64,000 nt of DNA from Candidatus Nitrosopelagicus sp. (GTDB taxonomy: Archaea > Thermoproteota > Nitrososphaeria > Nitrososphaerales > Nitrosopumilaceae). Below the pieces are notes generated by a model that worked only from the letters and a program-made list of their open reading frames with translations, ran no database searches and was not told where the DNA came from. The DNA lies in the NCBI GenBank assembly GCA_022450565.1, contig JAKUOP010000007.1, forward strand, positions 48,693 through 112,692, written 5' to 3'. Both the position numbers and the translations under genes were made by a program. Of the stretch, positions 61,617-64,000 are shown in pieces (position 1 is the first letter of the stretch; each line of letters begins with the position of its first letter).

Positions 61617-62885
61617 ATGGCAAAAATTTGGGTGGAAGCATATGGATGCTCTGCTAGTTTTTCAGACTCTGAAATGATTTCAGGTTTGATTGTAAATGGC
61701 GGACATACTTTAGCTGATAGTTCAGAAGAATCAGATCTCAATGTTATCGTTACATGCTCTGTAAAAGATGCAACGGCAGCAAAAATGGTTCATAGAATTA
61801 AGGAGTCAAACTCTAAGCCATTAGTCGTAGCAGGATGCCTGCCAAAGGCAGAACAGCATACTGTTGAGAAATTTGCTGAAAATGCGAGCCTATTAGGCCC
61901 AAATTCTATCGGAAAAACGCTTCAAGTCATCAAGTCAACACTTGATGGGCAAAAAATTATTGCACTGGAAGATACTGACATAACAAAGATCGGATTGCCA
62001 AAGATCCGTCTAAACTCTGCTATTGGAATTGTTGAAATTGCAAGTGGATGCATGAGTGAATGTACATTTTGCCAGACCAAACTGTCGAAGGGAGACTTGA
62101 AAAGTTATAGAATTGGTGATGTGGTAAGGCAGGTCAAAACAGAAATTTCTGATGGATGTAATGAGGTTTGGCTAACGTCTACTGACAATGGCTGCTATGG
62201 TTTAGATATTGGAGCCGATTTACCTGAATTAGTTAATGCCGTATCAGAAATAGACAATAAGTTTTTCATTCGTGTCGGAATGATGAACCCAATGTATATG
62301 CCAAAAATTCGAGATGGTCTGCTGAAATCATTTGAAAGTACCAAAGTCTTCAAATTTTTACATGTTCCAGTTCAGAGTGGAAGTAACAAAGTACTGAATG
62401 ATATGAAAAGGGGTCATACTGAGCAAACTTTTAGGGATGTTACTAACAAATTTAGAGATAAATTTGAGAAATTTACAATCTCTACTGATGTAATTGTTGG
62501 ATTTCCAACGGAAACTGAGGAAGACTTTGAAGCAACATTGAAGCTTTTGAAAGAGACCAAGCCAGATATTGTAAATCTATCAAGATACAGTCAAAGACCT
62601 GGAACATATGCGGCTGAAATGAGGCAAATTGACGTAACTGAAGTCAAGCGAAGAAGCAAAACTGCATATGAACTAATCAATGAGATTTCTGAAGAAAATA
62701 ATAAAAATTGGATTGGATGGGAAGGCCAAGTCATTTTTGATGAAGAGCATGAAGACCAAATAAGAGGGAGGAATTTTGCATACAAGCCTATCTTTGTAAA
62801 AGAAAAACCAAAAATTGGTCAGATTTCTACTGTCAAAATCATAGATTCTACAACCCACAGTCTAATTGGTCAGATTATGAGCTAA
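61617..62885 (+). CDS. tRNA methylthiotransferase (MiaB-like, archaeal/CDKAL1 type)
   Basis: 422-residue radical-SAM enzyme. An N-terminal UPF0004 domain has three cluster Cys (EAYGCSASFSD, VTCSVKDA, AGCLPKAE). The radical-SAM CxxxCxxC is ASGCMSECTFCQTK, and a C-terminal TRAM domain is seen. By family it adds methylthio groups to t6A37 in tRNA. It follows the lyase gene by 1 bp. Confidence 0.92.
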   Translation: MAKIWVEAYGCSASFSDSEMISGLIVNGGHTLADSSEESDLNVIVTCSVKDATAAKMVHRIKESNSKPLVVAGCLPKAEQHTVEKFAENASLLGPNSIGKTLQVIKSTLDGQKIIALEDTDITKIGLPKIRLNSAIGIVEIASGCMSECTFCQTKLSKGDLKSYRIGDVVRQVKTEISDGCNEVWLTSTDNGCYGLDIGADLPELVNAVSEIDNKFFIRVGMMNPMYMPKIRDGLLKSFESTKVFKFLHVPVQSGSNKVLNDMKRGHTEQTFRDVTNKFRDKFEKFTISTDVIVGFPTETEEDFEATLKLLKETKPDIVNLSRYSQRPGTYAAEMRQIDVTEVKRRSKTAYELINEISEENNKNWIGWEGQVIFDEEHEDQIRGRNFAYKPIFVKEKPKIGQISTVKIIDSTTHSLIGQIMS

Positions 62886-62947: not shown

Positions 62948-63898
62948 ATGTTCATGACTTTTGAGATAGCCGAGCCTGTATTGGTCGTTGGTCTTGGTGG
63001 CGCAGGCTCAAAACTTGCAATGGAGTTGAAAGAAGTAATGAATTCTGACTGTGTTTGCATCAGTAATGACAAAAAAGACCTAAATTATGAAAATTCAATT
63101 GAGATTTCTACAAAATCAATCATCAATCCTTCAATCCAGCTGATTAGAGGTTGTGCATTAGAGCATGCTGATGAAATTACCAAATGCGTGTCAAACTACA
63201 AGACTGTCATTATCATGGCAAACTTGGCTGGTAAGGCAGGTGCAGCACTATCACCAATTGTTTCTTCAGTATCTAAAGAGCAAAACAAAAATGTATTGTC
63301 ATTTGCCATCATGCCATTTAAATTTCAAAAAGACAGAATTTTCCAATCAGGTATATCGCTAAAAAGACTTCGAACAAATTCTGATTGCACAATAATTATT
63401 GATAATGACGCATTACTTGACAGCAATCCAGATCTTACTCCAGAGAAATGCTACGAAATCACAAATAAAGCAATTCATTGCCTTACAACTTCACTGAAAT
63501 CATCACCACTCTCTGACGACATGAATATAATGTCAACAAGTAAAAATGCAGAAGATCTTGAAACATCCTTGAAAGATTCCATGAGAATGCTATACGAGGA
63601 TGCAGCCCCAACAAGTATCAAGCGTTCCATGTTGTATGTATATGGCGGAAGTAAAATACCAGTTGGCGTGATAAACTCGATATCAAATATTGTAGGTGGT
63701 ATATTTGAGGAAGATAATACACATGTAGATATGTCAACATCTGAAAATTCAAATGTTGTAATGCTTAGTTCAATTCAAGGTGAAACACGCTTTGATAAAT
63801 ATGATCCACTTGGAATTATTTCTCATGATAAGACAATTGATTGGGATGAACCAGAGTGTAGTATTGAATGTGAACTTGATATCCCACAGTTAGAGTAA
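62948..63898 (+). CDS. Divergent FtsZ-family protein with degenerate GTPase motifs
   Basis: 316 residues; ATG 62954 is an alternative start supported by a TTTTTTATC box 26 bp upstream. The fold is recognisable as FtsZ: LVVGLGGAGSKLAMEL (residues 12-27), SFAIMPFKFQKDRIFQSGIS (residues 118-137), TIIIDNDALLD, and a C-terminal domain with MLYVYGGSKIPVGVI. However the tubulin/FtsZ signature GGGTGTG is replaced by ANLAGKAGAALSPIV (from residue 91) and the NxDxxD catalytic loop is absent. GTP hydrolysis is thus doubtful. It resembles the diverged thaumarchaeal FtsZ known from literature. Confidence 0.82.
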   Translation: MFMTFEIAEPVLVVGLGGAGSKLAMELKEVMNSDCVCISNDKKDLNYENSIEISTKSIINPSIQLIRGCALEHADEITKCVSNYKTVIIMANLAGKAGAALSPIVSSVSKEQNKNVLSFAIMPFKFQKDRIFQSGISLKRLRTNSDCTIIIDNDALLDSNPDLTPEKCYEITNKAIHCLTTSLKSSPLSDDMNIMSTSKNAEDLETSLKDSMRMLYEDAAPTSIKRSMLYVYGGSKIPVGVINSISNIVGGIFEEDNTHVDMSTSENSNVVMLSSIQGETRFDKYDPLGIISHDKTIDWDEPECSIECELDIPQLE

Positions 63899-63903
63899 AA
63901 TAA

Positions 63904-64000
63904 TTATTCAGATTTCTTTGGTGCAGCTTTTGGTTTAGACTCTTTCTTTGGTGCAGCTTTTGGTTTAGACTCTTTCTTTGGTGCAGCTTTTGGTTTAGAC
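63904..64000 (-). CDS. C-terminal tail of a Lys/Pro/Ala-rich repeat protein (cut by window edge)
   Basis: Reverse-strand frame ending KPKAAPKKSE before TAA at 63904. Upstream it repeats KPKAAPKKES three times in the visible part, from exact 30-bp DNA units. Such tails are typical of proteins binding nucleic acid. The head of the gene lies outside the window, so identity is unknown. It converges on the FtsZ-like gene. Confidence 0.6.
   Translation of the reverse strand, partial: SKPKAAPKKESKPKAAPKKESKPKAAPKKSE
63913..64000. repeat. 30-bp tandem repeat
   Basis: The unit TTTCTTTGGTGCAGCTTTTGGTTTAGACTC is repeated almost three times without a mismatch to the window end. It encodes a 10-residue basic repeat on the reverse strand. 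Exact repeats at DNA level suggest recent expansion or strong homogenisation. Confidence 0.9.

Follow-up and report, generated by a model that had tools for sequence, protein, structure and literature searches.

Ammonia-oxidising archaea carry an FtsZ alongside the Cdv division system, and a 2024 study still describes its function in Nitrososphaeria as not fully understood (PMC11082331). The best-described example is Nmar_1262 of Nitrosopumilus maritimus, in which AGKAGSA stands in the place of the GGGTGTG signature and the T7 loop is absent. In yeast this protein formed no polymers, and putting GGGTGTG in did not rescue it (Ng et al. 2013, PMC3684127). The portion of Santana-Molina et al. (2023, PMC9871819) considered here describes "divergent FtsZs" of Crenarchaeota that branch outside FtsZ1 and FtsZ2. 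Archaeal SepF, for its part, is the membrane anchor of FtsZ and binds the FtsZ C-terminal peptide with its GID motif (Pende et al. 2021, PMC8178401).

We found a member of this FtsZ family near the 3' end of the window, a stretch of 64,000 nucleotides from Candidatus Nitrosopelagicus sp. (Table 1). The open reading frame at 62948-63898 on the forward strand comprises 316 aa. Translation probably starts at the third codon, ATG 62954, rather than at 62948, because close relatives begin at the equivalent of M3 and this residue is at least 90% conserved. The product is an FtsZ-family member with the Tubulin/FtsZ fold: the Pfam Tubulin profile matches at 3.5e-17 (63.8 bits, cut-off 33 bits), a PDB sequence search matched FtsZ structures with E-values down to 6.7e-11, and a fold search of the PDB with the AlphaFold model (mean pLDDT 91) returned top matches that are all FtsZ (E about 1e-16, TM 0.58-0.70). 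CetZ or tubulin as closest kin was rejected, as the best PDB matches by sequence and by fold are FtsZ and tubulins and CetZ reached E-values of about 0.01-0.1. The comparison with FtsZ, CetZ and tubulin structures that the first-pass annotation had proposed thus points to FtsZ, and the FtsZ-like glycine-rich loop (GLGGAG), the MPFKF segment and the C-terminal domain that it had recognized are all present. The score against the NCBIfam FtsZ equivalog TIGR00065 (59.1 bits) lies far under the cut-off of 295.2. A TrkA_N Pfam match was set aside as an effect of the glycine loop common to both. A single-protein scan yielded one locus, in Candidatus Nitrosopelagicus AH-558-D10, as the closest named relative (94% identical).

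Table 1. Features of the divergent FtsZ gene and its neighbours, in window coordinates.
Feature	Position	Strand	Basis or remark
FtsZ-family CDS, predicted pseudo-GTPase	62954..63898	+	ORF, Pfam Tubulin, starts of relatives, dN/dS; first-stage start 62948
T1 glycine loop and start of H1, retained, VLVVGLGGAGS (residues 11-21)	62978..63010	+	alignment
T3 region, rewritten, NPSIQLIRG (residues 60-68), replacing the FtsZ GAG/GGG loop	63125..63151	+	alignment
T4 phosphate loop, replaced, ANLAGKAGAALS (residues 91-102)	63218..63253	+	alignment
T5 segment IMPFKFQKDR (residues 121-130), P134, F135 and R142 equivalents kept	63308..63337	+	alignment
T6 segment IIDNDA (residues 150-155), Asn equivalent of E. 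coli N165 kept	63395..63412	+	alignment
Deletion site of T7 loop and H8, between end of H7 (residue 183) and start of S7 (192)	63497..63520	+	AlphaFold model, alignment gaps
C-terminal segment and tail, conserved, FDKYDPLGIISHDKTIDWDEPECSIECELDIPQLE (residues 282-316)	63791..63895	+	conservation, f20 proteins, match to other-class tails
MiaB-like-B tRNA methylthiotransferase (TIGR01578), upstream neighbour	61617..62885	+	inherited context
eL31 gene, convergent, 3' end	63904..64000	-	30-bp tandem repeat of KESKPKAAPK units at the end of the contig

We compared the pocket positions by alignment, in E. coli FtsZ numbering. The T4 loop of the protein reads NLAGKAGAALSP, and its FtsZ counterpart GLGGGTGTGAAP; NLAGKAGAA occupies the GGGTGTG region, and AGKAGAA aligns with GGGTGTG itself. 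This replacement of the G-box, claimed at first for the single protein, extends to all 50 sequences of families f1, f2, f3 and f5. The NxDxxD (T7) loop, which had been reported as not visible, is in fact deleted outright: 50 of 50 aligned sequences of the same families have gaps at E. coli positions 207-212, and in the AlphaFold model H7 (165-183) runs straight into S7 (192-197), so that helix H8 is gone as well as T7. Since the identical change is fixed across the family, the alterations of T4 and T7 are due neither to chance nor to sequencing error. Model and alignment show that both catalytic and interface elements have been lost, and a protein devoid of its phosphate-binding and interfilament catalytic loops should therefore neither hydrolyse GTP nor form FtsZ-type filaments. 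A variant that builds filaments without GTP, for budding or vesicle formation, might be envisaged, given that a 2024 cryo-EM study speculates on a role of FtsZ in apparently budding N. maritimus cells (PMC11082331). Because T7-H8, which forms part of the protofilament interface, is deleted and yeast showed no filaments (PMC3684127), we regard this as improbable.

The alignment indicates that the GTP pocket is rewritten rather than erased, because several of its positions (G19, G22, R142, N165) are retained. Equivalents of G19, G22, E138, R142 and N165, which we take to be nucleotide-contact residues of FtsZ structures, are found in most f1 sequences; at E138 the protein itself has Q and most relatives have E. 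G20 is invariant in alignment A1. The rewritten T3 segment is likewise conserved in f1, where 33 of 34 sequences carry N at E. coli position 71. The first-pass annotation had also offered a nucleotide-free regulator, which does not stand as established while part of the pocket is kept, and the protein may bind a ligand without hydrolysis. Such a pocket could act as a switch, in which a nucleotide or phosphate ligand, held by T1, T5, T6 and the Lys/Arg of T4, controls partner binding. The retained contact residues would fit this reading, as would the Lys or Arg at position 107 (32/34 f1, 12/12 f3 and f5, 4/4 f2 sequences) and the rank of the pocket-side segments among the most conserved stretches of the protein. 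Still, the phosphate contacts of T3 and T4 are replaced, and one group of relatives, f20, dispenses with most of the T1-T5 region and nonetheless keeps the tail, which leaves the switch possible but rather unlikely.

These f20 proteins (L173-L176, L080) are core-truncated FtsZ relatives of about 220-250 residues in which the GTP-binding half is mostly missing and the tail segment LGDRVLDLEPEE is retained. Because f20 keeps the tail, and because D286 is invariant and P287 and D298 are conserved in at least 90% of 48 diverse sequences, the tail has, by these comparisons, lasted better than any other part of these proteins. In the protein of the window it reads EPECSIECELDIPQLE, and the GID-type archaeal C-terminal peptide is not present. 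Over roughly its final 20 residues it is similar to the tails of intact FtsZ from another class of the phylum. The individual E-values are weak (0.004-0.4), but when a tail profile was searched against 1,034 tails, 1,000 of them shuffled, the nine best were real tails of this intact group, a result that is convincing for the group and not for single members.

Of the 300 class genomes, 259 contain a homologue of the protein, and pairwise dN/dS against the gene of the window is 0.07-0.17; the gene is therefore constrained and under strong purifying selection. As had been suggested as a check on repurposing, loss of the same residues is conserved across ammonia-oxidising families, and together with the strong selection this supports a repurposed protein. 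Ng et al. (2013, PMC3684127) suggested a functionless relic that is being lost since Cdv took over division, and the absence of both catalytic sites and the failure to polymerise (PMC3684127) agree with that view, as does the disappearance of both divergent FtsZ and SepF from some lineages. Low dN/dS, retention in most genomes, and conservation of the tail and of the replacement loop are difficult to reconcile with decay, however, and make a relic very improbable.

In our tree, which was computed without named archaeal FtsZ1/FtsZ2 references and without CetZ, one branch (100/100) sets the divergent family apart, and another (99/91) does so for the intact FtsZ of the same class. The divergent family sits on a long branch, and deeper placement is unsure because the branches are long. 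Intact FtsZ of this class, as defined by matches to alignment A2, occurs in 16 of 300 genomes, in several of them together with the divergent protein. The AlphaFold model of this canonical paralogue (pLDDT 70.5) is too weak for detailed comparison. In the order's other families, as well as in f16, T4 reads GLGGxxGS and the catalytic Asp residues are mostly missing from the T7-H8 region; f1, f2, f3 and f5 combine an NLAG-type T4 loop with the T7-H8 deletion. This series of present-day sequences suggests a stepwise decay that began with T7 catalysis, continued with the G-box and ended with H8. Two loci in other-class families (L100 in G401, L104 in G548) show a separate decay of the T4 and T7 motifs with the tail kept, possibly a parallel loss. 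Within family f2 (L048, L050, L052, L054), the divergent FtsZ has open frames of 392-437 aa with low-complexity insertions between core elements.

The genomic neighbourhood is informative about descent. The MiaB-like gene adjoins the family gene in 17 of the 20 loci that were compared, but it also flanks GTPase-intact FtsZ genes in another class and thus represents inherited context; the special link to the divergent gene that had been considered at first finds no footing here. PHP and MetRS neighbours are common to f16 and the intact FtsZ of the other class. Based on this synteny (MiaB, PHP, MetRS) and the weak tail match, the family is a probable positional orthologue of the intact other-class FtsZ. 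Descent from a GTPase-intact FtsZ is what the synteny points to, although the tail match is weak and the family lies on a long branch. The downstream Lys-rich gene, once proposed as a partner, was dismissed as such: it encodes ribosomal protein eL31, whose Lys/Glu tail is repetitive (L31e match of 3.2e-16 at L124 6960-7436). A perfect 30-bp tandem repeat (KESKPKAAPK units) spans window positions 63913-64000 at the contig end, and the assembly probably broke in it. These neighbours would fit a factor linked to translation or tRNA and connected with the MiaB-like enzyme and with eL31, which lies nearby in several families. Such a role is highly doubtful, as MiaB accompanies intact FtsZ too and protein-synthesis genes are frequent neighbours of archaeal ftsZ (PMC9871819), so that the context predates the loss.

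The most likely partner candidate is SepF. The genome of the window encodes one at G000 C13:16609-16827 (PF04472, 3.2e-12; a 92-aa ORF in L125). PF04472 was detected in 268 of 300 class genomes, and 248 of the 300 contain both divergent FtsZ and SepF (248 of the 259 with the protein), while 21 contain neither; this co-occurrence (Fisher p 1.6e-13) ignores phylogeny and partly reflects shared ancestry. Both proteins are absent from all 11 sampled f17 genomes and from both genomes of genus g25. Snf7/CdvB relatives persist in eight of nine checked genomes that lack the pair. The pairing is broken in some near-complete genomes: G008 has SepF and no divergent FtsZ, and in G112, which has the divergent FtsZ, no SepF was found. 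A class-specific SepF profile retrieved no additional SepF from all 32 SepF-negative genomes. Among genomes with intact FtsZ, G309, G314 and G307 yielded no SepF with PF04472. The SepF proteins of the class differ in their N-termini from those of the other class: only 7-27 codons precede the core, mostly with a low amphipathic moment, compared to 27-54 codons with moments of 0.60-0.92 in that other class. A few extensions in the class reach 0.5-0.64; these are longer stretches with uncertain starts. The SepF of this class thus lacks the N-terminal amphipathic extension and, we infer, its membrane anchor.

Taken together, these results lead us to propose that the protein is an FtsZ-derived pseudo-GTPase adaptor that binds a partner, most likely the core-only SepF, through its tail and acts as an accessory to Cdv, a proposal to which we give an even chance. 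A true FtsZ ancestor would have become a pseudo-GTPase that kept the FtsZ fold; loss of the phosphate-binding and catalytic loops would have ended GTP hydrolysis and FtsZ-type filaments, presumably also in vivo, and cells would have kept the protein as an adaptor that forms no filaments. A partner, most likely the SepF of the same genome, could then bind to its C-terminal tail; this SepF itself lacks the extension that elsewhere anchors SepF to membranes. The FtsZ-SepF pair may form a module, accessory or regulatory, that works alongside Cdv/ESCRT-based division. The difference of the tail from the GID motif, the exceptions G112 and G008, the share of common ancestry in the co-occurrence, the weak tail homology between the classes, and the partial pocket, which leaves room for a nucleotide, count against this adaptor. 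More tentatively, and with less likelihood, FtsZ and SepF could have changed together across the class, the one losing its GTPase and filament interface and the other its membrane anchor, to leave a soluble adaptor beside Cdv that is held by the tail. The observed pattern sharpens the question of whether the conserved tail binds an anchor-less SepF. If so, a cytoskeletal GTPase would have turned into an adaptor while its partner changed in step, and the pair would reveal which parts of the FtsZ-SepF system outlive FtsZ-based cell division.

Compared to known systems, the protein is closest to Nmar_1262, a member of the same family with the AGKAGSA motif and no T7 loop from a lineage that encodes Cdv proteins; only the divergence between the genera is evident. 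The losses in T4 and T7 are themselves not new, as they were published for Nmar_1262 (PMC3684127). SepF, the tail, synteny and the wider class lay outside the scope of that study, and our analysis adds signs of descent from a working FtsZ, of continuing selection and of a preserved tail with which the protein may bind a partner. The clade of the window is probably included among the "divergent FtsZs" of Santana-Molina et al. (2023, PMC9871819), where the branching is noted; motif loss, tail and SepF are not analysed in the portion of that work considered here. Canonical archaeal FtsZ of the other class (L098, L099, L101-L103) shares the fold, the MiaB neighbour and a tail of the form EPE..l.l.LyQ(M/L)E, and with family f16 the PHP and MetRS neighbours, but keeps GLGGGTGTG and N(L/I)DFAD, neither of which the protein of the window possesses. 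The second FtsZ clade within the class (L082-L093; 73% mean column identity) has the same fold and is encoded together with the divergent protein in several genomes, but differs in its intact T4 and T7, its different tail, its position as a separate clade and its restriction to those 16 genomes. Like the archaeal SepF-FtsZ system (PMC8178401), the pair described here comprises a SepF core and an FtsZ-fold protein whose C-terminal tail is conserved; unlike that system, it has no GID motif, no amphipathic SepF extension and no GTPase signature.
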